A DNA stretch of 64,000 nt from Falsiroseomonas bella (lineage in GTDB: Bacteria; Pseudomonadota; Alphaproteobacteria; Acetobacterales; Acetobacteraceae). Below the pieces are notes generated by a model. It saw only the letters and a program-made list of their open reading frames with translations, was not told the DNA's origin and did not search any database. The stretch lies in the NCBI RefSeq assembly GCF_003173615.1, contig NZ_QGNA01000001.1, positions 1,488,001 to 1,552,000 on the forward strand, in the 5' to 3' direction. Within the stretch, counting starts at the first letter, position 1; every line of letters begins with the position of its first letter. The translations under genes and the position numbers were made by a program. This document shows, piece after piece, positions 14,296 through 30,604 of the stretch.

Positions 14296-15657
14296 ATGGG
14301 CTTCGCGCACACCGTGGGCGGCACCCGCCACGTCTTCCCCGACCTCCGCACCCTGCTGGCGCGGGCCACTCCCTCGCGCTCGGGCGACGTGCTGGCCGGG
14401 GTCGCGGCGGAGAGCGCGGCGGAGCGCGTGGCGGCGCAGCGCGCCCTGGCCGACCTGCCGCTGCGCCATTTTTTGGCCGAGGCGGTCGTTCCGTATGAGG
14501 CGGACGAGGTCACGCGGCTGATCCTGGACAGCCACGATCCGGCCGCCTTCGCGCCGGTGGCGCACCTGACCGTCGGCGGCTTCCGCGACTGGCTGCTGGG
14601 CGAGGCAGATAGCACCGCGCTGACCGCCCTGGCGCCCGGCCTGACGCCCGAGATGGTCGCCGCCGCCAGCAAGATCTGCCGGCTGCAGGACCTGGTCGCC
14701 ATCGCCGCCAAGTGCCGGGTCACTACGCGCTTCCGCAACACCATCGGCCTGCCCGGAACGCTCTCGATCCGGTTGCAGCCGAACGATCCCGTGGACGACC
14801 CGAAGGGGGTGGCCGCGCAGATCCTGGACGGCCTGCTGTTGGGCGCGGGCGATGCGGTGATCGGCGTGAACCCCGCCACCGACAACGTGGACAATCTCTG
14901 CCGCCTGCTGGAGATGCTGGACGGCGTGCGCGCGCGGTTCGACATCCCGACGCAGACCTGCGTGCTCGCGCATGTCACGACCACGCTGCTGGCGATCGAG
15001 CGCGGCGCGCCGGTGGACCTGGTGTTCCAGTCCATTGGCGGCACGCAGAAGACCAACGAAAGCTTCGCCGTCTCGCTGGCGCTGCTGAAGGAAGCGCGGG
15101 AGGCGGCGCTGGCCTTGAGGCGCGGCACGCTCGGCGACGACCTGATGTATTTCGAGACCGGCCAGGGCAGCGCGCTCTCGGCGGAGGCGCATCACGGCTG
15201 CGACCAGCAGACCATCGAGGCGCGCGCCTATGCCGTGGCCCGCGCCTTCTCGCCGCTCCTGGTGAACAGCGTCGTCGGCTTCATCGGCCCGGAATACCTG
15301 TTCGACGGCAAGCAGATCACCCGCGCGGGGCTCGAGGACCATTTCTGCGGCAAGCTGCTCGGCCTGCCGATGGGAGTGGATGTTTGCTACACCAACCACG
15401 CCGAGGCCGACCAGGACGACATGGATGCGCTGCTGACGCTGCTCGGCGTCGCCGGTGTCACCTATGTGATGGGTGTGGCGGGCGCGGATGACGTGATGCT
15501 CGCCTACCAGTCCACCTCCTTCCATGACGGTCTCTATGCGCGGGCCGCGCTGGGAAAGCGCCCTGCACCGGAATTCGCCGCCTGGCTCGAGCGCATGGGC
15601 ATCGCGGACCGCACGCTGGAGGCGCTGCCGGCGCCGATGACGGATTTGCTGCGATGA
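14296..15657 (+). CDS. eutB: Ethanolamine ammonia-lyase, large subunit
   Basis: A 453-residue catalytic subunit of adenosylcobalamin-dependent ethanolamine ammonia-lyase, which turns ethanolamine into acetaldehyde and ammonia. Family stretches are MVAAASKICRLQDL, RFRNTIGLPGTLS, IGVNPATDN and FIGPEYLFDGKQI. A conserved glutamate sits in YFETGQGSALSAEAHHG. The start is ATG at 14296; the upstream ribosome-binding site is weak (GGCGG). Its stop overlaps the eutC ATG. No eut microcompartment shell, eutA reactivase or acetaldehyde dehydrogenase is adjacent, so this is the short two-gene catabolic version. Confidence 0.96.
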   Translation: MGFAHTVGGTRHVFPDLRTLLARATPSRSGDVLAGVAAESAAERVAAQRALADLPLRHFLAEAVVPYEADEVTRLILDSHDPAAFAPVAHLTVGGFRDWLLGEADSTALTALAPGLTPEMVAAASKICRLQDLVAIAAKCRVTTRFRNTIGLPGTLSIRLQPNDPVDDPKGVAAQILDGLLLGAGDAVIGVNPATDNVDNLCRLLEMLDGVRARFDIPTQTCVLAHVTTTLLAIERGAPVDLVFQSIGGTQKTNESFAVSLALLKEAREAALALRRGTLGDDLMYFETGQGSALSAEAHHGCDQQTIEARAYAVARAFSPLLVNSVVGFIGPEYLFDGKQITRAGLEDHFCGKLLGLPMGVDVCYTNHAEADQDDMDALLTLLGVAGVTYVMGVAGADDVMLAYQSTSFHDGLYARAALGKRPAPEFAAWLERMGIADRTLEALPAPMTDLLR

Positions 15658-16433
15658 GCACGCCCGTGCTGTGGCGCGACCTGCGCCGCTACACCCCGGC
15701 GCGCGTCGCGCTCGGCCGCGCCGGGAATGCGCTGCCGACCGCGGCGCATCTCGATTTCCAGGAAGCGCATGCACGGGCGCGCGACGCGGTGTGGTCAGGC
15801 CTCGACGCGCCGGCGCTTGAAGGCGCGGTTGGCGCCTTGGGCGTTCCCGTGCGCCGCGTGGCGAGCGCGGCGCCCGACCGGCGCAGCTACCTGCTGCGAC
15901 CCGATCTCGGGCGGCGCCTGGCGGATGGCGAAGCGGCGCGGCTGGCCGAAATCGCTGCGCCCGGCAGCATCGCGGTCGTGCTGGCCGACGGGCTCTGTGC
16001 CACCGGGGTGCAGGCGCATGCGCCGCCGCTGCTCGCCGCGCTGCTGCCGGGGCTGCGCGCGGCGGGCTGGCAGCTGGCGCCGGTCGTCATCGCGACCCAG
16101 GCCCGCGTGGCGCTTGGTGATGCCGTCGGCGAGGCGCTGCAGGCCGCCGCGGTCGCCGTGCTGATCGGCGAGCGGCCGGGCCTTTCGGCGACCGACAGCC
16201 TCGGCTGCTATCTCACCTGGGCGCCGCGCCGTGGCCGCACCGATGCCGAGCGAAACTGCATCAGCAACATCCGCCCCGAGGGCCTGCCGCCCGAGGCTGC
16301 CGCGCGCAAGCTGCTGTGGCTGCTCGATGCCGCGCGCCGGCTCGGCCAGACCGGCGTGGCGCTGAAGGACGAGGAACCGGCCGCCCCGCTCGTCGCGCCG
16401 CAGCCGCAGGATCGGATCGGCGGCACGCCGTAG
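15654..16433 (+). CDS. eutC: Ethanolamine ammonia-lyase, small subunit
   Basis: A 259-residue small subunit that forms the cobalamin-binding part of the enzyme with EutB. Recognisable segments are TPARVALGRAGNALPT, VVLADGLCATGVQAHA, LIGERPGLSATDSLG and RNCISNIRPEGLP. The start ATG overlaps the eutB stop (ATGA), so translation is coupled. The C-terminal tail after about residue 240 is Pro/Gln-rich and probably disordered. Confidence 0.96.
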   Translation: MSTPVLWRDLRRYTPARVALGRAGNALPTAAHLDFQEAHARARDAVWSGLDAPALEGAVGALGVPVRRVASAAPDRRSYLLRPDLGRRLADGEAARLAEIAAPGSIAVVLADGLCATGVQAHAPPLLAALLPGLRAAGWQLAPVVIATQARVALGDAVGEALQAAAVAVLIGERPGLSATDSLGCYLTWAPRRGRTDAERNCISNIRPEGLPPEAAARKLLWLLDAARRLGQTGVALKDEEPAAPLVAPQPQDRIGGTP

Positions 16434-16445
16434 CCGGCTGTTCAG

Positions 16446-16467
16446 GATGTTCGCGAACGCGAACATC
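16446..16467. promoter_or_regulatory. Perfect 10-bp inverted repeat (candidate operator or enhancer)
   Basis: Half-sites GATGTTCGCG and CGCGAACATC are separated by two A residues. It is followed by two direct copies of CGTTCGCG at 16472-16487. It lies 12 bases after eutC and about 120 bases before mrpA. No T-run follows, so a terminator is less likely than a protein-binding site. Its place about 90 bases upstream of a -24/-12-like sequence suits an enhancer for the NtrC-type regulator encoded at the end of the same operon (inference). Confidence 0.5.
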
Positions 16468-16559
16468 GGGGCGTTCGCGCGTTCGCGCCGCTGAACGCGC
16501 ACGGGCCGCTCCGGATTTCTAAGCAATTGATTTTACAGGCTTTGACGCGCCGCGCGGCC

Positions 16560-16575
16560 TGGCACGTCTCTTGAA
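16560..16575 (+). promoter_or_regulatory. Degenerate sigma54-like -24/-12 element before mrpA
   Basis: TGGCACG-TCTC-TTGAA matches the sigma54 consensus (TGGCACG-N4-TTGCA) except that the -12 C is an A. The element would place transcription start only a couple of bases before the mrpA ATG at 16588. That is too short for a normal leader, so it is weak evidence by itself. It gains interest from the sigma54 activator in the same gene set. Confidence 0.25.
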
Positions 16576-16587
16576 AAGTGGGCAGCG

Positions 16588-18903
16588 ATGAGCATCGCCC
16601 CGTCCCTCGCGCTCGGCCTTCCGCTCGGCCTCGGCCTGGCAGGCGCCATTGCGGCCACCATGATGAAGCGCGGCGTGGCGCAGGCCGGCGCCGCCGTCGC
16701 CGCGCTGGCCTTCCTGCTCTACCTGCTCGCCGCGCCGGGCGTGACCGAGACCACCGACCTGCGGTTCGGCTTCTGGTCCGTCCCCTCCCTCGGCGTGGTC
16801 GGCGGGCTGCGCCTGGACGGCCTTTCGTTGGTCTTCGTGCTGCTCATCACCGGCATCGGCGCGCTCGTTCTGCTCTATGCCAGCCGCTATTTGAAGGGCG
16901 ATACGCGCCTGCCGCGCCTGGTCACGCTGCTGTTGATCTTCATGGTCGCGATGCTCGGCGCCGTCACGGCGGACGACGTCGTCACGCTCTTCGTCTTCTG
17001 GGAGCTGACGAGCCTCGCCTCCTTCTTCCTTGTGGCCTACGACCATGAGAAGCCCGGCGCGCGGAAGGCGGCTCTGCAGGCGCTGCTGGTCACCGGCGGC
17101 GGCGGGCTGGCGCTGCTCGCCGGCCTGATCCTGGTGGCGATGGCCGCCGGCACCACCAGCCTCTCCGGCATCATCGCGGCGCGGGAAGCGGTGCTGGCGC
17201 ATCCCGCCGCCATCCCCGCGATGCTGCTGGTCGTGCTCGGCTGCTTCACCAAGTCGGCGCAGTTCCCCTTCCAGTTCTGGCTGCCGAACGCGATGGCGGC
17301 GCCCACGCCGGTCAGCGCCTATCTGCACTCCGCCACCATGGTGAAGCTCGGCATCTACCTGCTGGCGCGGCTCAATCCGGTCTATCAGCACGAGGCGTTC
17401 TGGCAGGAACTGCTGACCACGGCCGGCCTGCTCACCACCGCCGTGGGCGCGATCTACGCGCTGCGCGAGAGCGACCTGAAGCGCGTGCTGGCCTGGACCA
17501 CCGTCACCGCGCTCGGCTCGCTCACCATGCTGATCGGCCTGGCGCCCGCGCTCTCGGCCACGGCTGCGGTCACTTTCCTGCTGGTGCATGCGCTCTACAA
17601 GGCGGCGCTGTTCCTGGTCGCCGGCATCGTGGACCACGAGACCGGCACGCGCGATGCCGCCGCGCTCGGCGGGCTGCGCCGCGCCATGCCGCTGACGGCG
17701 CTCGCGGCCGTGCTCGCCGCGCTCTCTATGGCGGGGCTGCCGCCCTTCGTCGGCTTCGTGGCGAAGGAGATCATCTACGAGGCGAAGCTCGCCACCGGCG
17801 GTGCGGCGGGGCTGTTCGCCAGCATCGGCTTCCTGGTCAACGCCGCGATGGTCGCCATCGCCGGGCTGCTTTCCTGGCGGCTCTTCTTCGGCCCGCTGCG
17901 CCCGACGCCGGCGACGCCGCATGATCCGCCGAAATCCATGCTGGCCGGCCCGATCCTGCTGGCCGGGCTCGGCCTGCTGGCCGGCGCAGCACCCTCCCTT
18001 GTCGGCGCGTGGCTGGTGGATGGCGCGGTCGCCGCGATGCTCGGCGCGCCGGCGGCGGTGCCGCTCAAACTGTGGCACGGCTTCACGCCCGTGCTGGCGC
18101 TGAGCGCGGCGACCATCGCGCTCGGCCTGCTGCTGCTGCTCGCCTGGGGGCGCCTGATGCCGCGGCTGCGCCGCGCATCTGCCTTCGACCGCTTCGACAC
18201 CGCGCGCCTCTATGACCGCGCGCTGGCAGGGCTCGTCGCCTGGGCCGAGGGCACGACGCGGCTGGTGCAGCATGGCAGCCTGCGCGGCTACATGCAGGTG
18301 CTTCTGCTGGTTGCCGCGCTCGGCCCGCTGGCCGTGCTGGTCGCGCGCGGCGGGCTCGACCTGCCGGAGGCCGCGCCGCTTGATTTCCGCGCCCTGGCAT
18401 TCCTGCCGATCGCGCTCGGCGCCATCGCGGCGGCGGTCGCCCGCGGCACCCTGGCCGCGGTGATGGCGACCGGCTTGGTCGGCTTCGGCACGGCGCTGGT
18501 CTTCCTGACGTTCGGCGCGCCGGACGTGGCGCTGACGCAGTTCACCGTGGAGGTGCTGCTGATCGTCATCCTCGCGACGGTGCTGATCCGCCTGCCGGTG
18601 CGTGCGCGCGATGTCCGCACGGGGCGCCAGCGCACCGTGGATGCCGCGGTGGCGGGCGCGCTCGGTCTCTCGGTCGCGCTGGTGCTGCTCGCCGTCCTGG
18701 CCGCGCCCTTCGATCCGCGCCTCGGCGAATGGTTCGGCGCGGAGAGCGTGCCCGGCGGCCACGGCCGCAACGTGGTGAACGTGATCCTGGTGGATTTCCG
18801 CGCGCTGGACACGCTCGGCGAGATCGCGGTGCTCGCCATCGCCGCCTTCTCGGTGATCGCGCTGCTGCGGGCTTCCGGCCGCGGCGCCCGGGTGGGGAGC
18901 TGA
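16588..18903 (+). CDS. mrpA: Mrp-type Na+/H+ antiporter subunit A
   Basis: A 771-residue polytopic membrane protein homologous to the NuoL/ND5 proton-pumping subunit and the largest subunit of the Mrp (Mnh/Pha) cation/proton antiporter. Family motifs are FFLVAYDHEKPGARKAALQA, SAQFPFQFWLPNAMAAPTPV, SAYLHSATMVKLGIY and HALYKAALFLVAGIVDHE. The C-terminal DUF4040/MrpB-like region (FLTFGAPDVALTQFTVEVL) is followed by GRNVVNVILVDFRALDTLGE. It heads a seven-gene operon in canonical A-B-C-D-E-F-G order with overlaps or short gaps throughout. The length is that of a separate MrpA, not the longer MrpAB fusion seen in some rhizobia. Confidence 0.95.
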   Translation: MSIAPSLALGLPLGLGLAGAIAATMMKRGVAQAGAAVAALAFLLYLLAAPGVTETTDLRFGFWSVPSLGVVGGLRLDGLSLVFVLLITGIGALVLLYASRYLKGDTRLPRLVTLLLIFMVAMLGAVTADDVVTLFVFWELTSLASFFLVAYDHEKPGARKAALQALLVTGGGGLALLAGLILVAMAAGTTSLSGIIAAREAVLAHPAAIPAMLLVVLGCFTKSAQFPFQFWLPNAMAAPTPVSAYLHSATMVKLGIYLLARLNPVYQHEAFWQELLTTAGLLTTAVGAIYALRESDLKRVLAWTTVTALGSLTMLIGLAPALSATAAVTFLLVHALYKAALFLVAGIVDHETGTRDAAALGGLRRAMPLTALAAVLAALSMAGLPPFVGFVAKEIIYEAKLATGGAAGLFASIGFLVNAAMVAIAGLLSWRLFFGPLRPTPATPHDPPKSMLAGPILLAGLGLLAGAAPSLVGAWLVDGAVAAMLGAPAAVPLKLWHGFTPVLALSAATIALGLLLLLAWGRLMPRLRRASAFDRFDTARLYDRALAGLVAWAEGTTRLVQHGSLRGYMQVLLLVAALGPLAVLVARGGLDLPEAAPLDFRALAFLPIALGAIAAAVARGTLAAVMATGLVGFGTALVFLTFGAPDVALTQFTVEVLLIVILATVLIRLPVRARDVRTGRQRTVDAAVAGALGLSVALVLLAVLAAPFDPRLGEWFGAESVPGGHGRNVVNVILVDFRALDTLGEIAVLAIAAFSVIALLRASGRGARVGS

Positions 18904-18906
18904 GTC

Positions 18907-19323
18907 ATGGACGCATCGTTGATCCTCCGCGTCTCCGCGCCGCTGCTGCTCTGGGTGCCGGCAATCGTCTCGCTCTACCTGCTGATCCGCGGCCACAACG
19001 AGCCGGGCGGCGGCTTCGTGGGCGGGCTTGTGGCTTCGGCAGGGCTCGTCTTCTTCGTCATCTCGCGCGGGCGGCAGGCGGCGCTGCGCGTCATGCGCGT
19101 GCCGCCGGCCGGCTGGTGCGGCATCGGCCTGCTGCTCGCGGCGGGCAGCGGCCTGCTGGCCTGGATCGATCCCGCCGCGGGCTACCTGACGCATCGCTGG
19201 TGGTTCCCGGACGTCGGCTTCAAGGTGCCGCTCGGCACCGCGCTGCTCTTCGATGTCGGCGTGTACCTCACCGTGATCGGCACGATCACGGCGATGGTCT
19301 TCGCCCTGGTGGACGAGGACTGA
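18907..19323 (+). CDS. mrpB: Mrp antiporter subunit B
   Basis: A 138-residue membrane protein with four hydrophobic segments. It carries the MrpB signature RGHNEPGGGFVGGLV after the first helix and ends with IGTITAMVFALVDED. It starts three bases after mrpA, with GGGGAG upstream of the ATG. It is part of the membrane core of the hetero-oligomeric antiporter. Confidence 0.95.
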   Translation: MDASLILRVSAPLLLWVPAIVSLYLLIRGHNEPGGGFVGGLVASAGLVFFVISRGRQAALRVMRVPPAGWCGIGLLLAAGSGLLAWIDPAAGYLTHRWWFPDVGFKVPLGTALLFDVGVYLTVIGTITAMVFALVDED

Positions 19324-19327
19324 GCCG

Positions 19328-19771
19328 ATGGAAATCGCCCTTCCCCTCGCCATTGGCGTGCTCGTCGCCGCGGCCGCCTATCTGCTGATGGCGCGCGACC
19401 TGCCGCGCGGGCTGCTCGGCTTCGTGCTGCTCGGCACCGCCGCCAACCTGACCATCTTCGCCGCCGGCCGCATCGGCACGATGACGCCGCCGCTCGTTGC
19501 ACCCGGTGCGCAGGCGCTGGAGGCCGGGGCGGCCAACCCGCTGCCGCAGGCGCTGGTGCTGACCGCCATCGTCATCGGCTTCGGCCTCGCTTCCTTCGCG
19601 CTGGTGCTGCTGCGTCGCGCCCATGCCGAATTCGGCAGCGTGATGTCCGAGGACATGCAGGAAGCCGAGCCGCCCCTCGCCGCCGCGCCGCCCGCCGAGC
19701 CGGCGCCGACGCCCCCGCCCGCGCGCCCGCGACCTGTGCCGGCCCCCGCCGCGCTGCGGGAGGTTGTGTGA
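19328..19771 (+). CDS. mrpC: Mrp antiporter subunit C (NuoK-like) with proline-rich tail
   Basis: A 147-residue subunit homologous to NuoK. Three membrane helices occupy roughly the first 100 residues, including GLLGFVLLGTAANLTIFAAG and ALVLTAIVIGFGLASFALVLL. A tail of about 40 residues rich in Pro and Ala (EPAPTPPPARPRPVPAPAA) follows, longer than usual, and is probably a disordered cytoplasmic extension. A GAGGA ribosome-binding site precedes the ATG. The stop overlaps the mrpD start. Confidence 0.93.
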   Translation: MEIALPLAIGVLVAAAAYLLMARDLPRGLLGFVLLGTAANLTIFAAGRIGTMTPPLVAPGAQALEAGAANPLPQALVLTAIVIGFGLASFALVLLRRAHAEFGSVMSEDMQEAEPPLAAAPPAEPAPTPPPARPRPVPAPAALREVV

Positions 19772-21309
19772 TGCGCCAGATCCTTCTCGTCGCGCCGATC
19801 CTGATCCCGCTTGCCGCCTGTGCGATCACCGCGCTGCTGTGGCAGCGGCCGGAGGTGCAGCGTCGCATCGGCGTCGCCGCCGCCGCGCTGCTGTTCCTCT
19901 CCACCCTCGCCCTGCTGGCGGAGGTGGTGACGGGCGGCATGGTCGTCGGGCAGATGGGCAACTGGCCGGCGCCCTTCGGCATCACGCTGGTCGTGGATCC
20001 GCTCTCCGCCGCCATGCTGGTGATCACCGGGCTGATGGCCCTGGCAGTGGCCGTATACGCCATGGGCCCGGGCGCGGCGGAGCGCGACCGCGCCGGCTTC
20101 CAGCCGCTGTTCCACGCGCTGGTCATGGGTGTGGCGGGCGCCTTCTCCACCGGCGATCTGTTCAACCTCTATGTCTGGTTCGAGGTGATGCTCATCGCCT
20201 CCTTCGGCCTGCTCGTGCTGGACCGCACGCGCGAGCAGCTGGATGGCGGGCTGCGCTACGTGATGCTGAACCTGGTCGGCACCACCTTCTTCCTGCTGGC
20301 GGTCGGGCTGGTCTACGGGCTGACCGGCACGCTGAACCTGGCGGACCTCGCGCGCGTCGCGCCGCAGGTGGAGAACCAGGGCGCGCTGGCCGCGGCAGCG
20401 GTGCTGCTGCTGATCTCCTTCGGCGCCAAGGCCGCGGTCTTCCCGCTGTTCAACTGGCTGCCCGCCGCCTACCACACCGCGTCCATGCCGGTGGCGGCGA
20501 TCTTCGCCGCGCTGCTGACGAAGGTCGGCGTCTACGCGATCATCCGCGTCTTCACGCTGGTCTTCGCGCATGACCAGGCGCTGTTCGGCCCGATCATCGG
20601 CGTGGTCGCGATGCTGACGATGGTGGTCGGCGTACTCGGCGCCGCGGCGCATTACGACGTGCGGCGCATCCTGAGTTTCCACATCATCAGCCAGATCGGC
20701 TATATGCTGGTCGGCGTCGCGCTGATGACGCCGCTCGCGCTCGCCGGCGCGGTGCTCTACATCGTCCACCACATCGTGGTGAAGGCGAACCTGTTCCTGG
20801 TCGCCGGCGCGATGCAGAAGGTCGGCGGCTCCTTCGCGCTGGCGAAGCTCGGCGGGCTCTGGGCCACGCGCCCGCTGCTCGGCCTGATGTTCCTGATCCC
20901 CGCGCTCTCGCTCGCCGGCATCCCGCCGCTCTCCGGCTTCTGGGGCAAGCTCGTCGTCATCCGCTCCGGCTTCGAGGCGGAGGCCTGGCTGCTCGCCTCC
21001 GTCGCGCTCGCGGTCGGACTGCTGACGCTCTACTCCATGGTGAAGATCTGGAACGAGGCCTTCTGGAAGGCCGCGCCGGCCGAGGCCGCTGCGCACCAGC
21101 CGGCGCCGGGCGAGTGGGGCCGCATGCAGCGCTTCGCCACCTTCGCGCCTATCGTCGCGCTCTGCGCCGTCACGCTGACGATCGGCCTCTGGACCGAGCC
21201 CTTCGCCGCCTTTTCGCTCGCCGCGGCCGAGGCGCTGCTGGACCGCGAGGCCTATATCGCCGCGGTGCTCGGCACCGCGCCGGTCCAGCTTGCGGAGGCC
21301 GTGCGATGA
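19771..21309 (+). CDS. mrpD: Mrp antiporter subunit D (NuoN/M-like)
   Basis: A 512-residue proton-translocating subunit of the NuoM/NuoN type. Characteristic segments are FNLYVWFEVMLIASFGLLVL, FGAKAAVFPLFNWLPAAYHT, the cation-channel lysine region FHIISQIGYMLVGVAL, and VKANLFLVAGAM. ATG at 19771 shares one base with the mrpC stop; a GTG one codon earlier is in frame. Its stop overlaps mrpE. Confidence 0.95.
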   Translation: MRQILLVAPILIPLAACAITALLWQRPEVQRRIGVAAAALLFLSTLALLAEVVTGGMVVGQMGNWPAPFGITLVVDPLSAAMLVITGLMALAVAVYAMGPGAAERDRAGFQPLFHALVMGVAGAFSTGDLFNLYVWFEVMLIASFGLLVLDRTREQLDGGLRYVMLNLVGTTFFLLAVGLVYGLTGTLNLADLARVAPQVENQGALAAAAVLLLISFGAKAAVFPLFNWLPAAYHTASMPVAAIFAALLTKVGVYAIIRVFTLVFAHDQALFGPIIGVVAMLTMVVGVLGAAAHYDVRRILSFHIISQIGYMLVGVALMTPLALAGAVLYIVHHIVVKANLFLVAGAMQKVGGSFALAKLGGLWATRPLLGLMFLIPALSLAGIPPLSGFWGKLVVIRSGFEAEAWLLASVALAVGLLTLYSMVKIWNEAFWKAAPAEAAAHQPAPGEWGRMQRFATFAPIVALCAVTLTIGLWTEPFAAFSLAAAEALLDREAYIAAVLGTAPVQLAEAVR

Positions 21310-21632
21310 GACGCGCCTTCGCCTGGCTGCGTGTGGCGGCCACCTTCGTCGTGGAGCTCGCCAAATCCACCTGGGCGACGATCCGCGCCGTGCTGGGCCC
21401 GACCGAGCGGCTGCGCCCGGCGATCCTGGCGGTGCCGCTCGATGTCCGATCGCCGGCGGGGACCGTGCTCTTCGCCGACATGGTCACGCTGACGCCCGGC
21501 ACCACCAGCCTCGACGTCTCGCCGGATGGACGCACGCTCTACGTCCATGTGCTGCACGCGCCCGACCATGCGGAGGCGATCGACGGCATGAAATCCACCC
21601 TCGAGGCCCGCGCGCGGGAGGTGCTGCCATGA
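21306..21632 (+). CDS. mrpE: Mrp antiporter subunit E
   Basis: A 108-residue subunit with an N-terminal membrane region (AWLRVAATFVVELAKSTW) and a small soluble domain containing VTLTPGTTSLDVSPDGRTLYVHVL, the diagnostic stretch of MrpE. It overlaps its neighbours by four bases on both sides. It is shorter at the N-terminus than many MrpE proteins and lacks one of the usual first helices. Confidence 0.93.
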   Translation: MRRAFAWLRVAATFVVELAKSTWATIRAVLGPTERLRPAILAVPLDVRSPAGTVLFADMVTLTPGTTSLDVSPDGRTLYVHVLHAPDHAEAIDGMKSTLEARAREVLP

Positions 21633-21925
21633 GCGAGCTCGTCATCCTGGCGGCCAAGGCGGCTGCGCTGATCGTGGCGCTCGGCCTGGTGCCGGTGGCG
21701 TGGCGCCTGATCACCGGCCCGTCCTCGGCGGATCGCGCGATCGCGACCGACATGCTCGGCCTGATCGGCGTGTGCCTCGCCGCGCTGACCGCGCTGGTTG
21801 CGGGCCATGCCGCCTTCCTCGACATCGCGCTCGGGATCGCGCTGGTCGGCTTCCTCGCCGCAGTCGCCTTCGCGCGCCTGCTCGAGCGCGCCAGCGTGAA
21901 GCCCGCGACGGAGCCCGCGGAATGA
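21629..21925 (+). CDS. mrpF: Mrp antiporter subunit F
   Basis: A 98-residue membrane protein with three helices and the family motif RLITGPSSADRAIATDML between the first and second. FLDIALGIALVGFLAAVAFAR forms the third. It overlaps mrpE and mrpG by ATGA junctions. Confidence 0.95.
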   Translation: MSELVILAAKAAALIVALGLVPVAWRLITGPSSADRAIATDMLGLIGVCLAALTALVAGHAAFLDIALGIALVGFLAAVAFARLLERASVKPATEPAE

Positions 21926-23235
21926 GCGACCTCATCGAGATCCTCGCCGCCTTCCTGCTGATCGCCGGCGCGTCCGTCGTGGCGCTTGCGGCGCTCGGCG
22001 TCGCGCGCCTGCCGGATCCGTTCAGCCGAATGCATGCGGCGGCGAAAGCGGGCGTGGGCGGGGCGGGGCTGCTGCTGCTCGGCGCCGGCCTCGCGCTCGG
22101 CACGCCGGGCGCGATCCTGACCGCGATCGCCGCCGTCGCCTTCCTCGTGCTGACCGCGCCCATCGCCTCCCACGCGCTGGGCCGTGCCGCCTATGTCGCC
22201 GGCGCGCCGCTTGGCGCCGCCTCGGTCGCCGACGCGCTCGCCGGCGTTCTCGACCGCGGCGTCTTCGACATCGACCCCGCCCGCACGGCGCGGCGTCGCC
22301 CCCTCCCGCGTGACCTCCTGCCGAAGGACAACGCCATGACCGCGATCCCGGAGTTCCGCCGGGCGGCCGATCCGGCCAGCCGCGGCGCGCCCGCCGCCGA
22401 TGCCGCGGCGATCCGCCGCATCCTCTGCTGCCTCGTCGGCGGCGCCGCCCAGCGCGAGGCCACCGAGGCCGCGCTGGAGATGGCGCGCGGCACCGGCGCG
22501 CAGCTCACCGGCCTCTCCGGCGCGGGGCTGGAGCCGCGCGCCTGGCGCGGCCCGCTGCCGGTCGGCGGCGCCTTCTGGTCCAGCTGGCTCGCTTCCAGCA
22601 GCCGCGCCCGCATCCGGCAGAGCTGCGCCGCCGCGCTGGACGAGTTCCAGTCCCTCGCGGCCGGATCGCCGGATCTCGACATCGTCGCCCGCCATGAGGA
22701 GACGGAGGCCAGCGCGCTGGCCCGCCTGCTCGCCGGGCAGGACCTGGTGGTGCTGCCCGCCGGCGCCGGCCCGCATGGCGCTGAGGCCGAGCCGGGCATG
22801 GAGATCGCGGCCTCTCTCGCGCGGGCGCGCGTCGCGCCGGTGCTGCGCGTGGCGCGGCGGCCGGGGGATGTTCGCGCGGTGCTGCTGCTGGTCGGCAGCT
22901 CTCCTGCCTGCGGCGCGCTCGCGGCCGGGCTGCTGCGCACCGGCCTCTGGCAGGGCGCGCCGGTCGCCATCCTGCCGGTCGGCGATGATCGGCCGGGCGT
23001 CGCCGAGATGGTGTCCGCTCAGGCGGAACTGCTGCGCGCGCATGGTCGCAAGGTGACCGTGCTCGCCTCGCTCGACCTCGACTTCGAGCAGGAGGAGCTG
23101 CGCCGCCTGCTCTCCCGCTACGACGGGGCGGTGATGTCACGTCTGTCGAACCGGCATGGCGGGTTCTTCGACAGCATCCGCAACTGCGCCTTCGAGACCA
23201 CGGCCGACACGGTGCCCGTCATCCTCTTGCCGTGA
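21922..23235 (+). CDS. mrpG: Mrp subunit G fused to a universal-stress-protein-like domain
   Basis: A 437-residue uninterrupted frame. Residues 1-about 105 are MrpG: three helices with the motif ALGVARLPDPFSRMHAAAKA and FLVLTAPIASHALGRAA. A linker of about 35 residues follows. Residues from about 139 on form a soluble alpha/beta domain pair resembling tandem UspA folds (RRILCCLVGGAAQREATEA, QDLVVLPAGAGPHG, AVLLLVGSSPACGALA, TVPVILLP). An internal ATG at codon 139 (22336) has AAGGA seven bases upstream, so a free USP-like protein might also be made. The canonical UspA nucleotide motif is not clearly retained. No stop separates the two parts. The sensor kinase follows after 52 bases. Confidence 0.85.
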   Translation: MSDLIEILAAFLLIAGASVVALAALGVARLPDPFSRMHAAAKAGVGGAGLLLLGAGLALGTPGAILTAIAAVAFLVLTAPIASHALGRAAYVAGAPLGAASVADALAGVLDRGVFDIDPARTARRRPLPRDLLPKDNAMTAIPEFRRAADPASRGAPAADAAAIRRILCCLVGGAAQREATEAALEMARGTGAQLTGLSGAGLEPRAWRGPLPVGGAFWSSWLASSSRARIRQSCAAALDEFQSLAAGSPDLDIVARHEETEASALARLLAGQDLVVLPAGAGPHGAEAEPGMEIAASLARARVAPVLRVARRPGDVRAVLLLVGSSPACGALAAGLLRTGLWQGAPVAILPVGDDRPGVAEMVSAQAELLRAHGRKVTVLASLDLDFEQEELRRLLSRYDGAVMSRLSNRHGGFFDSIRNCAFETTADTVPVILLP

Positions 23236-23287
23236 GGCGGGGCGGCCGGTAGGGGCGCGGGGAAGCGCGACCCCATATGAGCCGGCG

Positions 23288-24718
23288 ATGACTGCCGACC
23301 GCCCACTTCCCGAAGGCGCCTCGCGCCGGCCCGCCATGCTGCCGCCCGCGCTGCGCCTGCCCGCGGCGGCGGGCGCGCTGGTGTTTGCGGTGGCGGTGGG
23401 CACCACCCAGGTCGCGCTGCTGGTGACGAACCGGCAGGCCGACCAGCAGCTGGAACAGCTCGGCAAGGTCTATCTGGACGGCATCGCCGCCAGCGTGCGC
23501 GCCGGGCTGGAGGCAGGGGACGGCGCCTATGTCGCCGATCGCTTCGCCCGAGCCTTCACCGAGCAGCGCGGCGTCGCGGAGCGCGGCCTCTTTGCCTTCG
23601 GGCCGGACGGCACGCTGCTCGCCCGCCATGGCGATCCCGCACTGCCGGAAGCGGTGGCGGCCGGCCTGCCCGAGAATGGCTGGCGGATGGACGAGGAGGC
23701 AGGCACCGCCTGGGCCGCGCGGCGCGTGGACGGCGCGGGCCGCATCGTCGCCGCGCTCGACATCGGGCCTTTGCTCGAATCGCGCAGCCGCCTCTCCTGG
23801 ACCATCGTGCTGGTGGATCTTGCGCTGGCCGGAATCTTCGCCGCGCTGACCTGGCTCGTGCTCGGCCGGGTGGGGCGCCCGCTCCGGGCGCTTGTCGCCG
23901 CGCTGTCGGAGGGCGCGCGGCGTGCGCCGGCGCCGCTCTCGGACGTGGTGGTGGCACAGGCCGATGCGCGCAGCGCCGCGGTGCTCCGCGCCTACAATCA
24001 CATGGTGGACGGCGTGAGGGAGCGCGAGCGGCTGGCCAACGAGCTGGCGGACCGGGAACAGGCCGCGGCGCTCGGGCGGCTTGCGGCCACCGTCGCGCAT
24101 GAGGTGCGCAACCCGCTCGGCGGGCTGTCCACCGCCGTCTCCACCCTGCGTCGCTTCGGCGACGACCCCACGGTGCGGGAGGAGGCGCTGGGCTTCCTCG
24201 ACCGCGGCATCGGCGCCCTGGACCGCATCGTGACGAGCACGCTGAACCTCTATCGCCCGGAGGACGACCGGCGCCTGACGCGCACCGACCTCGAGGATCT
24301 GGCGCAGCTGGTGCGCCCGGCGGCGGCGCGTGGCGGCGTCGGGCTCGATGTCGCGCTGGACCTGCCGGGGGGCGAGATCGGCGTCGGCGCCGGCGGCGTG
24401 CGACAGGTGCTGCTGAACCTGCTGCTGAACGCCTGCGAGGCGACGCCGCGCGGCGGCGCGGTCGGGTTCCGCGCATGGCTCGAAGCGGACGCGCTGGCCT
24501 GCGAGATCGCCGATGCTGGCCCGGGCCTCGGCGCCGCGGAAGCCGCGCGGCTGGCCGGGCAGGGGGAGGCGCCGCAGGGCTCGCGCCGGCTTGGCCTCGG
24601 CGTGGTGGTCGGGCTGCTCGGCAACCTCGATGCGCGGGCCTCGGTCGCGGAGCGGCCGGGCGGCGGCACGCTGATCCGGCTCTCCATTCCCCTGACATCG
24701 GCGGGCGCCCCGGCATGA
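23288..24718 (+). CDS. Sensor histidine kinase linked to the Mrp operon
   Basis: A 476-residue membrane kinase. Two transmembrane helices, at about 24-46 and 172-193, flank a periplasmic sensing domain of about 125 residues. A HAMP-like region and a HisKA domain follow, with phospho-acceptor His271 in VAHEVRNPLGG. The ATPase domain has the N-box NLLLNACEAT (Asn381) and ADAGPGLG. This is the NtrB/AtoS-like arrangement that partners sigma54 response regulators. The next gene overlaps by ATGA. It presumably senses an envelope or ionic signal related to the antiporter (inference). Confidence 0.93.
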   Translation: MTADRPLPEGASRRPAMLPPALRLPAAAGALVFAVAVGTTQVALLVTNRQADQQLEQLGKVYLDGIAASVRAGLEAGDGAYVADRFARAFTEQRGVAERGLFAFGPDGTLLARHGDPALPEAVAAGLPENGWRMDEEAGTAWAARRVDGAGRIVAALDIGPLLESRSRLSWTIVLVDLALAGIFAALTWLVLGRVGRPLRALVAALSEGARRAPAPLSDVVVAQADARSAAVLRAYNHMVDGVRERERLANELADREQAAALGRLAATVAHEVRNPLGGLSTAVSTLRRFGDDPTVREEALGFLDRGIGALDRIVTSTLNLYRPEDDRRLTRTDLEDLAQLVRPAAARGGVGLDVALDLPGGEIGVGAGGVRQVLLNLLLNACEATPRGGAVGFRAWLEADALACEIADAGPGLGAAEAARLAGQGEAPQGSRRLGLGVVVGLLGNLDARASVAERPGGGTLIRLSIPLTSAGAPA

Positions 24719-26037
24719 GCACGCCGAAAGTGGTGCTGGTCGTGGAGGACGACCCGGTTCTTGGCCCCGCTTTGGTGCAGCGGCTTCGACTGGAAGGTTA
24801 TCGGCCGCGCCTTGCCGAGACAGGCGCGGCGGCGCTGCGGGAGGCGGCGGCGCTGGCGCCCGATGCGGTGCTCAGCGACATCCGCCTGCCGGACATGTCG
24901 GGCGAGGAGGTATATCGCCGCCTGCTGGCGGAATACGGCGCCCTGCCCGCCTTCTTCATGACCGCCTTCGGCGAGGTGGCGCAGGCCGTGCGCCTGGTTC
25001 GCGCCGGCGCGCGCGATTACCTGACGAAGCCCGTGGACGTGGACCGGCTGATGGTCGCGCTGCGCGCGGCGCTGGCGGCCGATCCGCAACCCGAGGCAGA
25101 CGCGCCGCCGCTTGGCGTCTCGCCCGCCATGCGCACCGTTGAGGCGACGCTGCGCAAGGCGGCGCGGGTGGATGTGCCGGTGGTGCTGACCGGCGAGACG
25201 GGTGTCGGCAAGGAAGTGGCGGCGCGCTTCCTGCACGCCGCCTCGCCGCGTGCGGCGCAACCCTTCGTCGCGGTGAACTGCGCCGCCATCCCGGCGGAAC
25301 TGGCGGAGAGCACGCTGTTCGGCCATGAGCGCGGCGCCTTCACCGGCGCGGTCGCGCGCAATGTCGGGCTGGTGGAGCGCGCGGGCGCGGGCACGCTGTT
25401 GCTGGACGAGGTGGCGGAACTCGCGCCCGACCTGCAGGCCAAGCTGCTGCGCCTGGTGCAGGAGCGCAGCTTCCTGCCGGTGGGCGCCGCCGCGGAGCGG
25501 CCCTTCGCCGCCCGGATCGTCTGCGCCACCCATGCCGACCTGGCGGAGCGCGTGCGCGCCGGCGCCTTTCGCGAGGACCTGTTCTTCCGCCTCAATGTGA
25601 TCGGGGTGGCGGTGCCGCCGCTGCGGCGCCGGCCGGAGGATGTTCCCCTGCTCGCCGCGCGCCTTCTGGCGGATGCGGTGGCCCGCTTCGGCCTCGGCCC
25701 GCGCCGGCTGCCGTCGGCGGCCATGGCGGCGCTGGCCGAGCATGACTGGCCCGGCAACATCCGTGAGCTGCGCAACCGGATCGAGCGCGCCGTCGCGCTG
25801 GCCGAGGGCGAGGAGCTCAAGGCTGCCGACCTCTTTCCCGAGGCGGCGCTGGAGCCGCCGCCCGCTGCCACGCCCGCGACGTTGGACACGGCATTGGGCG
25901 ATGCCGCGCGCGCCGCGATCCGCGACGCGCTGCGCCGTTCCGGCGGCAGCCGCGCCGGCGCCGCGCAGCTGCTCGGCATCTCCCGCACCACGCTTTGGAA
26001 GCGAATGCGGGAACTGGGCCTCGGCGAGGAGGGCTGA
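24715..26037 (+). CDS. NtrC-family response regulator (sigma54 activator)
   Basis: A 440-residue three-domain regulator. The receiver domain has Asp55 as phosphorylation site (LSDIRLPDMSG) and Lys105. The AAA+ domain has Walker A GETGVGKE (160-167), the sigma54-contact loop GAFTGA (207-212), Walker B TLLLDEVAEL and the arginine-containing sensor NIRELRNRIERA. The C-terminal Fis-type helix-turn-helix is SRAGAAQLLGISRTTLWKRM. It is translationally coupled to the kinase. The palindrome before mrpA is a candidate target. It is convergent with hemC; the 59-base gap contains no convincing terminator. Confidence 0.95.
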   Translation: MSTPKVVLVVEDDPVLGPALVQRLRLEGYRPRLAETGAAALREAAALAPDAVLSDIRLPDMSGEEVYRRLLAEYGALPAFFMTAFGEVAQAVRLVRAGARDYLTKPVDVDRLMVALRAALAADPQPEADAPPLGVSPAMRTVEATLRKAARVDVPVVLTGETGVGKEVAARFLHAASPRAAQPFVAVNCAAIPAELAESTLFGHERGAFTGAVARNVGLVERAGAGTLLLDEVAELAPDLQAKLLRLVQERSFLPVGAAAERPFAARIVCATHADLAERVRAGAFREDLFFRLNVIGVAVPPLRRRPEDVPLLAARLLADAVARFGLGPRRLPSAAMAALAEHDWPGNIRELRNRIERAVALAEGEELKAADLFPEAALEPPPAATPATLDTALGDAARAAIRDALRRSGGSRAGAAQLLGISRTTLWKRMRELGLGEEG

Positions 26038-26096: not shown

Positions 26097-27125
26097 CTAC
26101 CCGAAAATGTCGGCGGGCGAGTCCGCGCGCAGGCTGTCGCCGAGCTCGCGGCCGAGCCGCGCGGCGTCGGCCGCGGCGCCGCACATCCGCCGTTTCAACA
26201 GGAAGGAGCCATCGGCGCGCGCGACGAGGCCGGTCAGTTCCACGTTGCCATCCGCCTGCAGACGCGCATGACCGCCGATCGGCGTGCGGCAGGAGCCGTC
26301 GAGCTCCGAGAGCAGCGCGCGTTCCGCACGGCTGGCGACCGCTGCCTCGGCATCCTCGATGATCGAGAGCAGCTCCCGCAGCTCGGCGTCGTCGGCCCGC
26401 ACCGTCACGCCGACGATGCCCTGGCAGGCGGCGGGCACCATGACCTCGGGATCCAGCACGCTGCCGGCCTCATGCGCCATCTCAAGCCGCCGCAGCCCGG
26501 CGAGCGCGAGCAGCGAAGCCTGCGGCCCGCCCTCGCCGCGCACCTTGGCCAGGCGCGATCCGACATTGCCGCGGATCATCTCCACCTGCAGGTCGGGGCG
26601 CGCATGCAGCAGCTGGCTCTGCCGGCGGACGGAGGCGGTGCCGACCAGCGCGCCGCGCGGCAGGCAGGCGAAGGGATCCCCGGCGTCCGGCGCGTGGCAT
26701 TCGGGACCGAGCACGATGGCATCGCGCGGATCCTCGCGCCGCAGCGTGCAGGCCAGCACGATGCCGGGCGGCAGCTCCGTCTCCAGGTCCTTAAGGCTGT
26801 GGACCGCGAAGTCGATGCGGCCATCCGTCAGCGCCTCGTGGATCTCCTTCGCGAACAGCCCCTTGCCGCCGATATCCGCCAGGCGCTTGTCCTGGATCTT
26901 GTCGCCGGAGGTCGCGATCACATGCTCCTCGAAGGCGTTGACCTCGCGCAGCAACGGGCAGACGCGCTGGATCAGGCCGAGGAAGTGCCGCGTCTGCCAC
27001 AGCGCGAGCGGCGAGCCGCGTGTGCCAACGCGCAGCGGCAGCGCCCGCGTCGTGCCGTGGCGATGCGGGGAGCCGCCGCCCGTGGCGCGGGCGTCGAGGG
27101 CGGCATCGAGCGAAGAGAGGCGCAT
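26097..27125 (-). CDS. hemC: Hydroxymethylbilane synthase (porphobilinogen deaminase)
   Basis: A 342-residue enzyme that polymerises four porphobilinogen units to hydroxymethylbilane in tetrapyrrole synthesis. Visible are GTRGSPLALWQT, DGRIDFAVHSLKDLE, GTASVRRQSQLL and the dipyrromethane-cofactor cysteine Cys279 in DGSCRTPIGG. About 28 residues precede the usual N-terminus, so a later start is possible. It lies 31 bases downstream of bchP on the same strand. It may therefore be co-transcribed with the leftward photosynthesis arm, tying early tetrapyrrole supply to bacteriochlorophyll synthesis. Confidence 0.96.
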   Translation of the reverse strand: MRLSSLDAALDARATGGGSPHRHGTTRALPLRVGTRGSPLALWQTRHFLGLIQRVCPLLREVNAFEEHVIATSGDKIQDKRLADIGGKGLFAKEIHEALTDGRIDFAVHSLKDLETELPPGIVLACTLRREDPRDAIVLGPECHAPDAGDPFACLPRGALVGTASVRRQSQLLHARPDLQVEMIRGNVGSRLAKVRGEGGPQASLLALAGLRRLEMAHEAGSVLDPEVMVPAACQGIVGVTVRADDAELRELLSIIEDAEAAVASRAERALLSELDGSCRTPIGGHARLQADGNVELTGLVARADGSFLLKRRMCGAAADAARLGRELGDSLRADSPADIFG

Positions 27126-27156
27126 CAGTCAGTCACTCCAGCGGGTCGCGCGCGGC

Positions 27157-28359
27157 TCATGCGCGGGCGAACCCGAACAGGTGGGCCAGATCCTTGAAGA
27201 AGATCCGCACATGCGCCAGCGGATCGCGGCGCACGAGCTCCTTGTTCATGTAGCTCTGCCAGGTCAGGCGCTGGACGTCCTTGTCCTCGCAGATCTTGAC
27301 GAACTTCTCGCGGCGCTTGTCCGACGAGTACCAGAAATACTGCATGATCCCGAGGATCCAGAAGACGCGCCCGTGCTGCTTCATGAAGCGCTTGCGCGCC
27401 AGGCCGAGCGCGGCCGGATTGCCGGAGGCGCAGAACGCCTCAGCCGCCTCCGCGGCAAGCCGCCCGCCGAGCATCGCGTAGTAGATGCCCTCGCCGGAGG
27501 CCGGCGCGACCACGCCGGCGGCATCGCCGGCCAGCAGCACGTCCCGTCCGTTGTCCCATTTCTTCAGCGGCTTCAGCGGGATGGGCGCGCCTTCGTGGCG
27601 GATGGTGCGCAGCTTGTCGAAGCCGGTCGCGCGCCGCAGGTCAGCGACGGCGCCGCGCAGCGCAAAACCCTTGTGCATGGAGCCGGTGCCGATGCTCACC
27701 TTCTCCCCATGCGGGAAGATCCAGGCGTAGAAGTCGGGCGAGAGCTTGCCCTGGTAGTACACGTCGCAGCGGTCGGCGTCGTATTTTGTGACCTCGCCCT
27801 GCCGCGGCGCCTCGACGATCTCGTGATAGGCGAAGACGCACTTCACCTTGTCGGCGCCCGGCACGGCCTGCTTGCCGACCTGGCTGCGTGCGCCATCGGC
27901 GCCGATGACGAGGCGTGCCCGCACACGCGTAAGCGGCGCGGAGTCGGGCGAACCCTTCTCCCGGTACTCCACAACGGCCACGCCGTCGGGATCGCGCGCG
28001 AGGGTCTCAAAGCTTCCGGTCGCCCGTGTCGCGCCCGCCTCCGCCGCGCGAACCCGGAGAAACTCGTCGAAATCCTCGCGGTCCACCATGCCGACATAGC
28101 CGCCGGTGTCGATCGGCATGTCCACTTCCTTGTCGGCGGGCGAGACCATCCGCGCCGAGGTGATCCGCGCCACCAGCAGATGTGCCGGGATGTCGAAGTC
28201 GCGGATCAGCCGTGGCGGGATCGCGCCGCCGCAAGGCTTGATGCGCCCTGCCTTGTCCAGCAGCAGCACGCTGCGGCCATTGCGGGCCAGGTCATACGCG
28301 GCCGTCGCGCCGGAAGGCCCGCCCCCCACCACCACGACATCGAAGGTCTCGTCCTGCAT
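27157..28359 (-). CDS. bchP: Geranylgeranyl reductase for bacteriochlorophyll
   Basis: A 400-residue flavoprotein that reduces the geranylgeranyl tail of bacteriochlorophyll to phytyl. It has an N-terminal FAD-binding motif GGGPSGATAA (12-21), GRIKPCGGAIPPRL, the middle GADGARSQVGK, and GDAAGVVAPASGEGIYYAM. The C-terminal segment FWILGIMQYFWYSSDKRREK is typical of BchP/ChlP. It is the fifth gene of the ppaA-led leftward operon; 13 bases separate it from the pucC-like gene. Confidence 0.96.
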   Translation of the reverse strand: MQDETFDVVVVGGGPSGATAAYDLARNGRSVLLLDKAGRIKPCGGAIPPRLIRDFDIPAHLLVARITSARMVSPADKEVDMPIDTGGYVGMVDREDFDEFLRVRAAEAGATRATGSFETLARDPDGVAVVEYREKGSPDSAPLTRVRARLVIGADGARSQVGKQAVPGADKVKCVFAYHEIVEAPRQGEVTKYDADRCDVYYQGKLSPDFYAWIFPHGEKVSIGTGSMHKGFALRGAVADLRRATGFDKLRTIRHEGAPIPLKPLKKWDNGRDVLLAGDAAGVVAPASGEGIYYAMLGGRLAAEAAEAFCASGNPAALGLARKRFMKQHGRVFWILGIMQYFWYSSDKRREKFVKICEDKDVQRLTWQSYMNKELVRRDPLAHVRIFFKDLAHLFGFARA

Positions 28360-28372
28360 CCTTCGTCTGCTC

Positions 28373-29695
28373 CTAGGGTGAGGCCGGTGCGGCCTGGGCG
28401 AAGTCGTCGCGGCGCATTGCCACGTCCTGGCCGATGCGCAGCGCCAGCAGCGCCGCGGCGAGGAACAGCGCGGCGTCTGCCAGGAAGACCACGCTGAAAC
28501 CCCCGGCGATGCTGCCCGTGGCGAGGCGCCCGAGATCCAGCACCACCGTGCCGAGGAAGCCGCCGAGGCCGAAGGCGATCGCCTGCGCCGCGCCGAACAT
28601 GCCCATGCGCACGCCTTCGCGTCCGCGTCGGCCCTGCGCCACGAGCTGCATCATCGCGGCGATAGCGGCGGCGGCGAACAGGCCGTTGGCCACGCCCAGC
28701 GCGAAGAAGGCGAGCCGCAGCGGGAAGGCGCCGCCGCGCACGCCGGCGAAAGCGAGGGTCAGCAGCACGCAGCAGGCGACCACGCAGCCGCCCAGGATCC
28801 AGCCCCGCAGCATCCGGATGCCGCCTTTCGCAAGGCTGCCCAGGATCGCGATGGCGATCATGCCGGCCAGCACGCCGCCATGCTGCACCGAGGACAGCCG
28901 CGTGGACTCGCCGAGCGTCATGCCGAAGACCGCGCCGGCGAAGGGCTCCAGGATCAGGTCCTGCGCGCTGTAGGCCAGCATCGAGACGAAGACGAAGAGG
29001 GTGAAGTGCCGCGCCGCGGGCTCCGACCAGACTTCCGCGAGTGCCGTGCGGAAGGCGGTTGGTGCCGCGCGCTCCGTCCGCGCGGCCTGGCCGCGCCCCT
29101 CGATGCCCGCCACGGCGAGGATGCTGACGAAGAAGGCGATGACGGAGACCGCCGCCGTCACCGTGATGAGCCGTTCCGCCGTGTAGGGATCGAGCAGGCG
29201 ACCGGTGGTCGCCGTCGTCACGACGAAGCCGGCGATCATCATGATCCACACGATCGAGGCCGCCGCCGGCTTGCGCGCCGGCGCCACGCGCGACGCCAGC
29301 AGCACCAGCAGCGACGTGCCCGCCGCGCCGACGCCGAGCCCGACCAGCAGGAAGCCCAGCACCGCAAGCAGGATGCCCGGCACCAGCGCCGTGCCCATCC
29401 AGGCCGTCGCCGCCGCGGCCACAACGCCGCCCAGTCCGAGCACCGCCATACCGCCGATGATCCAGGGCGTGCGCCGGCCGCCCTGGTCGGAGCCATGCCC
29501 GAGCCGCGGCCGCAGCATCTGCACGGCATAGTGCAGAGCGACCAGCGCGCCCGGCAGCATGGCCGGCAGCGCGTGCTCCACCACCATCACCCGGTTCAGC
29601 GCCGCCGTGGTCAGCACCACCACGGCACCGAGCGAGGTCTGCACCAGGCCGAGGCGCAGGATGCCGAGCCAGCCGAGGGGTGCTTGCGTCGTCAT
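28373..29695 (-). CDS. PucC/BCD-family MFS protein between bchP and bchG
   Basis: A 440-residue, twelve-helix member of the bacteriochlorophyll-delivery branch of the major facilitator superfamily. Family marks are ALNRVMVVEHALPAMLPG, GGRRTPWIIGG, SMLAYSAQDLILEPFAG and FGMTLGESTRLSS. This is the protein found between bchP and bchG in many purple bacteria (Bch2/ORF428), distinct from LhaA encoded at 42008. It probably helps move or insert pigment into light-harvesting complexes. Its start overlaps the bchG stop. Confidence 0.92.
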   Translation of the reverse strand: MTTQAPLGWLGILRLGLVQTSLGAVVVLTTAALNRVMVVEHALPAMLPGALVALHYAVQMLRPRLGHGSDQGGRRTPWIIGGMAVLGLGGVVAAAATAWMGTALVPGILLAVLGFLLVGLGVGAAGTSLLVLLASRVAPARKPAAASIVWIMMIAGFVVTTATTGRLLDPYTAERLITVTAAVSVIAFFVSILAVAGIEGRGQAARTERAAPTAFRTALAEVWSEPAARHFTLFVFVSMLAYSAQDLILEPFAGAVFGMTLGESTRLSSVQHGGVLAGMIAIAILGSLAKGGIRMLRGWILGGCVVACCVLLTLAFAGVRGGAFPLRLAFFALGVANGLFAAAAIAAMMQLVAQGRRGREGVRMGMFGAAQAIAFGLGGFLGTVVLDLGRLATGSIAGGFSVVFLADAALFLAAALLALRIGQDVAMRRDDFAQAAPASP

Positions 29696-30597: not shown

Positions 30598-30604
30598 GGC
30601 GTCC

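Follow-up and report, generated by a model that had tools for sequence, protein, structure and literature searches.

The window analysed here is a 64-kb stretch (G000:C1:1488001-1552000) of the 5.9-Mb genome of Falsiroseomonas bella; all coordinates below are window positions. It holds a gene set for an Mrp-type antiporter, mrpABCDEFG, followed by genes for a sensor histidine kinase (HK) and an NtrC-type response regulator (RR), nine genes that all lie on the + strand (open reading frame list and Pfam). We propose that they very probably form one autoregulated sigma54-type transcription unit, comprising mrpABCDEF, mrpG fused to a universal stress protein (USP) domain, HK and RR, which would be controlled by its own AioR-like pair. 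The gene set, the promoter module, their conservation, the kinship of the pair with the arsenite regulators AioSR and the mrpG fusion are all supported by the sequence.

By Pfam, the Mrp (CPA3) subunit set A-G is complete, and the gaps or overlaps between genes from mrpA to RR measure 3 to 4 nt, except for 52 nt between mrpG and HK. RR has the makeup of an NtrC-type sigma54 activator: a receiver (Response_reg), an AAA+ domain (Sigma54_activat) with GAFTGA and a Fis-type helix-turn-helix (HTH_8), with GETGVGKE also in the translation. HK probably carries two transmembrane helices around an extracytoplasmic alpha/beta region. Considered as a possible Cache fold, this region is drawn by the model as helix-2 strands-helix-3 strands; it has no convincing Pfam match, and structure matches are dominated by the kinase domain. 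For both proteins, no listed NCBIfam model reached its cut-off. Thus, the co-directional mrp set, sensor kinase and GAFTGA-containing NtrC-type regulator of a preliminary description of this DNA are all in place, as Pfam matches and translations attest.

That description had also reported a USP-like domain. The domain is there, but it lies within the mrpG frame, which the description had overlooked: mrpG has no stop codon before 23233 and therefore encodes a 437-aa MrpG-USP fusion rather than ending before a separate USP gene. The usual MrpG measures ∼110-160 aa; here, model and structure matches place MrpG at residues ∼6-111 and an additional C-terminal domain with a predicted tandem USP fold at ∼165-407. 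Pfam Usp gives no match for the window domain, 8.9e-8 for a stand-alone Skermanella relative and 3.7e-4 (below the cut-off) for the fusion of Pseudochelatococcus contaminans (L089). By eye, the USP ATP-binding motif looks degenerate. The MrpG frame of L064 is broken (249 aa); that of its sisters L065 and L066 measures 410 aa. On Skermanella plasmids, the USP stands alone before the kinase. The recurrent pairing of USP and HK, separate or fused, suggests that the USP may be an input part or an antiporter adjuster, in the way that the KdpD domain has a share in K+ control. As a side observation, the L089 fusion (7796-9946) reaches ∼720 aa, with an apparent second USP-like stretch.

Conservation of the pair and of the promoter module

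The preliminary description had proposed a dedicated NtrC-type pair and had named beforehand, as the outcome that would speak against it, a lack of conservation beside mrp. The opposite was found, with the pair recurring in congeners, family and class. Seven of 14 congeners have mrpA (73-80% identity), and in all seven HK and RR follow directly downstream in the same order; the HK frame of one, G011, contains TGA. In other genera of the family, the pair adjoins mrp in G188, G345, G068, G404 and G051, and also in G153, G243 (where HK is split) and G074. A search of 397 family genomes listed 41 mrpA places, 16 with the pair, 19 without and 6 cut by a contig end. In a class-wide sample of 347 genomes, the pair accompanies 4 of 21 mrp loci besides the window, from four other families. 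These searches scored the best two candidates per genome in the family and the best three in the class, so that additional mrp copies could have escaped. Scanning named genomes with the HK alignment, with 13 (L089-L101) of 80 kept loci checked for mrp, adds Pseudochelatococcus contaminans, Pelagibacterium luteolum, Rhizobium albus and Pararhizobium haloflavum, as well as Falsiroseomonas oryziterrae (L098), which has the same genes as the window operon, and Salinarimonas rosea, where mrp has partial HK/RR matches.

Upstream of mrpA, the perfect 10-bp inverted repeat, the two direct copies of CGTTCGCG and the -24/-12-like sequence described earlier are present (Table 1). Within the inverted repeat, the functional unit is probably the palindrome GTTC-N8-GAAC (site 1). 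A copy of it that had not been named before, site 2, starts 32 bp after the start of site 1, overlapping the second copy of CGTTCGCG, and the -24/-12 box starts 79 bp past the start of site 2. Against the sigma54 consensus (GG at -24, GC at -12), the box has the GG and the spacing, with GA in place of GC.

Relatives retain this layout of sites and box while the remaining upstream DNA diverges. We compared 28 module promoters (26 of mrp, 2 of Skermanella usp), counting a site at 7 or more of its 8 fixed letters. Two sites lie 31-33 bp apart in 14 of the 28, and 12 have a single site. The missing -12 C, a weak point named at the outset, is real and shared by relatives: the C is absent from 10 of the 28, the window among them, and present in 18. 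Applied to 67 mrp loci, one rule found the module at 23/23 loci linked to the two-component system (TCS) and at 2/34 unlinked ones (L100 and L082). The partial RR match of L100 put it among the unlinked loci, though HK and RR pieces adjoin its mrp. This count omits eight contig-end loci from both sides (L050, L057, L059, L070, L073, L075, L193 and L204), and L194 and L083 had upstream DNA too short for a promoter score; L194 has a pair of perfect sites spaced by 33 bp, and its box scores 18/24. One or more perfect palindromes lie within 250 bp at 17/23 TCS-linked and 0/34 unlinked mrp loci. In the class sample, a perfect palindrome lies within 400 bp upstream of mrpA at 3/4 linked and 0/17 unlinked loci, which is a cleaner out-of-sample test than the box rule. 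The earlier suggestion of sigma54-type control of mrpA, with the repeat as enhancer, thus gains support from the conservation of box and sites at TCS-linked loci.

Neither element is distinctive by itself. Boxes at the unlinked mrp loci L050, L062 and L079 score up to 20/24, so that the box alone does not discriminate. The window holds five single and one double GTTC-N8-GAAC site, and its first-order Markov copies average 0.28 single and 0.0 double. In the whole genome, two sites 8-28 bp apart occur at two places, of which one is the mrpA promoter; the other (G000:C9:161846-161894; L056, L086) has no accompanying -24/-12 box of 21 or more in the scan, which covers L086. Across 387 family genomes, double sites with a spacer of 15-17 occur at 12 places in 11 genomes, and TCS-linked mrpA promoters account for three of the 12 (G000, G007 and G188); the reversed control pattern occurs at one place in each of two genomes. 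The double site is therefore rare rather than unique, and the case rests on position, combination and conservation. A stricter scan of the window and L035-L101 (2.3 Mb, both strands) required a box of at least 21 plus one perfect or two 7/8 sites. It returned the combined module at TCS-linked mrpA and at L059, at aioB in L091 and L099, ahead of HK in L096 and at one further place (L073); the linked L039, L045, L046 and L089 escape it. Across the class, the pattern GTTCN8GAAC-N70-100-TGGCAYGN4TTGC was found in 3/385 genomes (L171, L172 and L173), L173 being an aioBA promoter; the window promoter cannot match it because its -12 C is absent. As a separate observation, L171 (position 1515, G448:C3, - strand) combines a perfect -24/-12 box with a pair of perfect GTTC-N8-GAAC sites spaced by 32 bp, and the gene behind it reads as aspartase-like (family judged by eye).

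The start codon follows the T of TGG by 27-31 nt in 16 of 17 same-family mrp promoters (the exception is L044) and by 35-51 nt at five loci of other orders. Sigma54 promoters keep a usual spacing from box to transcription start. Placed by it, the predicted mrpA transcript would start at ∼16586, 2 nt before the start codon, and those of the same-family promoters 1-5 nt before theirs. Later start codons are unlikely at L045 and L046, where the protein opens directly with an apparent first membrane helix. The very short leader, another weak point named earlier, would correspond to a distance that is conserved in 16 of the 17. To our knowledge, a sigma54-dependent leaderless mRNA would be unusual, and the conserved near-lack of a leader, if true, would provide one.

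Kinship with the arsenite regulators AioSR

The module found before aioB led us to compare the pair with AioSR, a kinship that had been missed. By tree and motif match, the pair belongs to the AioSR clade, and the sites are AioR-type. Scored with the AioR motif published in PMC5335332, site 1 fits at 16/16, a fit that no other place in the window reaches, and the further mrp sites tried fit at 13-16. PMC6011840 (Corsini et al. 2017) gives the NT-26 aioBA promoter as TGGCACAACGATTGCA.

The RR tree (IQ-TREE) has 51 rows, six of them other NtrC-type regulators used as root; L065 and some other rows were left out, and L100 is absent because its RR match is too poor. Mrp-linked, arsenic-linked and 12 other RRs form one 45-row clade (100/100), the 12 comprising 2 usp-linked, 9 without known target and L176. 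A set of 16 rows (100/97) unites the window RR with Skermanella usp-linked RRs. The aio/arx/ars RRs are one set (10 rows, 95/90) within the sister group (29 rows, 93/91), and the window lies outside that set. Of 12 plasmid records, 10 were examined, 3 of these without annotation. Among the annotated ones, Ensifer (RR named AioR) and Bosea carry genes for a PhnD-type binding protein, HK, RR and arsenite-oxidase subunits, Acuticoccus has oxidase subunits, and a Cereibacter cluster reads as arx-type.

An AioX-like gene was found in the stretches of 10/10 arsenic-linked loci, four of which had supplied queries, and 0/28 mrp/usp-linked ones. AioA was detected in the control G762 but in none of 21 genomes that carry the mrp system, and neither aioA nor aioB was found at the mrp loci searched. 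Together with the RR clade, these absences indicate a system that is AioSR-like but not AioSR. The pair might nonetheless be a true arsenite (or antimonite) sensor, with the Mrp antiporter as part of an arsenic response; the AioR type of RR and sites would fit, but we consider this unlikely given the lack of AioX and AioA and the position of the mrp-linked RRs outside the aio/arx/ars set.

AioXSR/ArxXSR of Agrobacterium GW4 and Rhizobium NT-26 (PMC5335332, PMC6011840) share with the present system an HK and a sigma54-type RR of one clade, 16-bp GTTC-N8-GAAC-type sites and a -24/-12 promoter of the adjoining operon. They differ in the target, which here would be mrp instead of aioBA or arx, with HK and RR at the end of the target operon. 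Here, moreover, no AioX stands beside the pair and arsenic genes are not adjacent; a USP domain fused to MrpG is found instead. Other AioR-like pairs have no known target (L047, L051-L054, L090, L092, L094 and L096), and in several of them the kinase gene is preceded by a -24/-12 box or an AioR-type site. L048 (G014) and L049 (G011) have AioX, HK and RR with no aioBA in the stretch; both have an arsC-like gene and L048 an arsB-like one, perhaps reflecting arsenic sensing with a different output. On plasmid pL11-A of Pseudoroseomonas cervicalis (L176 8917-18410), an AioR-like HK/RR follows a tripartite-tricarboxylate-type binding protein and precedes genes for PTS IIA and for an Mrp of another type (annotated as mrpA, C, D, E, F and G). 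L176 was not counted as the same system, since the stretch scanned has no perfect or 7/8 GTTC-N8-GAAC site.

Proposed circuit, alternatives and origin

In the circuit that we propose, the membrane kinase would respond to a condition located either at the membrane or outside it by phosphorylating RR. RR would bind as dimers to the two GTTC-N8-GAAC sites, spaced by three helical turns and lying ∼98 and ∼130 bp ahead of the transcription start, and would activate sigma54 RNA polymerase at 16560-16575. The mrp mRNA would be leaderless, with ∼2 nt ahead of the mrpA start codon, and HK and RR, as part of the operon, would be autoregulated. The tandem USP domain would couple antiporter state or energy state either to the kinase or to the activity of the antiporter, a role that we can only guess. 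RR binding, sigma54 use, the leaderless start, the single transcript and autoregulation are what we infer from the arrangement. The signal is likewise guessed: Na+, pH or proton-motive force is the better bet, some other signal is a good deal less likely, and arsenic or another oxyanion less likely still.

Several observations weigh against this circuit. The window box lacks the -12 C, and site 2 fits the AioR motif at only 13/16. In L097 and L043, the sites are 27 and 58 bp apart. The unlinked L082 passes the module rule with one 7/8 site. The box cut-off of 18/24 was chosen after the family and class loci had been seen, and at 21 one of the four class loci passes; the boxes of L185, L187 and L194 are weak (20, 19 and 18 of 24), and boxes of 18-20 also turn up by chance at unlinked loci. 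The HK frame of L035 holds TGA, and HK of L065 is split. L060 (G216:C53) has a fused MrpG (388 aa) with neither HK/RR nor the promoter module on its stretch. Finally, the genome has a paralogous AioR-like pair on C10 (L047 8398-11216) with one GTTC-N8-GAAC site, GTTCGGCTTTCCGAAC, before its kinase, which makes cross-talk possible. The fusion of L060 may be a relic of a lost regulator.

The same paralogue supports the idea that another regulator, such as the C10 RR, binds the sites while the linked RR acts elsewhere, since members of the clade may read similar sites. We regard this as improbable: the sites track the linked pair locus by locus, and Skermanella usp-HK-RR loci carry the sites without mrp. 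Least probable, by a narrow step, is that a sigma70-type promoter drives mrpA, with a coincidental box and a pair that regulates other genes, a view favored by the absent -12 C, the nearly nil leader and similar chance scores at some unlinked loci but opposed by the conservation of box and sites at linked loci, their absence from nearly all unlinked ones and a simple scan of 16200-16800, which found no sigma70-like site (other promoter types being outside its reach).

In an mrpA tree whose root was not inferred and which leaves out L065 and L098, the 24 TCS-linked rows lie inside one 40-row group (100/99) together with 14 unlinked rows, L059 and L060. A single origin of TCS-linked mrpA (26 rows: the 24 plus L059 and L060) was rejected (AU test, p 5.9e-8). 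The nesting of the 14 unlinked rows makes repeated loss likely, and the broad match between the main branches of the group and those of the RR tree suggests that mrpA and RR were long inherited together, with losses. In the rooted RR tree, the deepest split has mrp-linked rows on either side, and the aio/arx/ars rows are one nested set. Linkage to mrp may be the ancestral state and linkage to arsenic genes a derived one, a picture possibly biased by a collection seeded with mrp-linked proteins. More speculatively, and less likely than not, the antiporter could be its own sensor, MrpG-USP reading the transport or energy state and passing it through the kinase to sigma54, with AioXSR a derived branch in which AioX replaced the MrpG-USP input.

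It is useful to set this system beside others that govern ion transport. Mrp (CPA3) antiporters with separate mrpA and mrpB share the seven subunits (Pfam) and the MrpG fold; here MrpG has a C-terminal tandem USP, and the operon has its own two-component pair and a sigma54-type promoter. KdpD/KdpE with KdpFABC shares the government of an ion transporter by a two-component pair and a USP domain in sensing, the KdpD domain taking part in K+ control according to PMC4686210 and PMC8214093. The USP domain of KdpD sits in the kinase, whereas here it sits in the antiporter. KdpE, furthermore, is not known to be a sigma54 activator. TeaD, the USP beside the TRAP transporter TeaABC of Halomonas, is a single stand-alone domain, unlike the tandem domain fused to a subunit here.

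The preliminary description knew of no example of mrp with an NtrC-type pair, and the open-access PubMed Central text that we searched likewise yielded no paper joining Mrp with sigma54, NtrC, RpoN or AioSR, or MrpG with USP. The nearest link is a title, that of Kashyap et al. from 2006, by which a Na+:H+ antiporter is reportedly essential for arsenite oxidation in A. tumefaciens. Little seems to have been written on the activation of Mrp: an Mrp review (PMC5703873), searched by word, returned none of 'two-component', 'promoter', 'sigma' and 'universal stress', and no dedicated regulator. The circuit proposed here is compact, conserved and directly testable; its sites and promoter are defined, and a signalling domain is physically joined to an antiporter subunit. 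With it, the arsenite regulators would become part of a larger family, the other members of which adjoin an ion antiporter, and the origin of bacterial arsenite sensing becomes a concrete question.

Features of the locus and neighbouring genes

Table 1. Features of the mrp locus, in window positions
Feature	Position	Strand	Basis
Perfect 10-bp inverted repeat, GATGTTCGCG-AA-CGCGAACATC	16446-16467	.	sequence
Putative regulator site 1, GTTC-N8-GAAC, inside the inverted repeat	16449-16464	.	sequence, relatives, AioR motif 16/16
Direct repeat CGTTCGCG, two copies	16472-16479 and 16480-16487		sequence
Putative regulator site 2, GTTCGCGCCGCTGAAC, GTTC-N8-GAAC copy	16481-16496	.	sequence, relatives, AioR motif 13/16
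-24/-12 sigma54-type box TGGCACGTCTCTTGAA, TGGCACG-TCTC-TTGAA, no -12 C	16560-16575	+	sequence, relatives
mrpA, 771 aa, MbhD/MbhE-type C-terminal domains	16588-18903	+	Pfam
mrpB, separate gene	18907-19323	+	Pfam MnhB
mrpC	19328-19771	+	Pfam Oxidored_q2
mrpD	19768-21309	+	Pfam Proton_antipo_M
mrpE	21306-21632	+	Pfam MNHE
mrpF	21629-21925	+	Pfam MrpF_PhaF
mrpG with C-terminal tandem USP domain, 437 aa	21922-23235	+	Pfam, open frame, model and structure matches
Sensor histidine kinase (HK), HisKA and HATPase_c	23288-24718	+	Pfam, model, alignment
NtrC-type response regulator (RR), AioR-like clade	24715-26037	+	Pfam, tree

Convergent on RR, a bacteriochlorophyll gene group adjoins the operon on the - strand (26097-30618), with genes for porphobilinogen deaminase, a geranylgeranyl-reductase-like FAD protein and a PUCC protein and a UbiA-type (bchG-like) gene (Pfam). 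This adjacency is not conserved. A link to light through these genes was rejected, as L035-L054, which include 12 TCS-linked mrp loci, have no match to these genes. On the upstream side lie eutB and eutC, for ethanolamine ammonia-lyase (14296-16433; Pfam), and the mrpA control region starts directly after the eutC stop.

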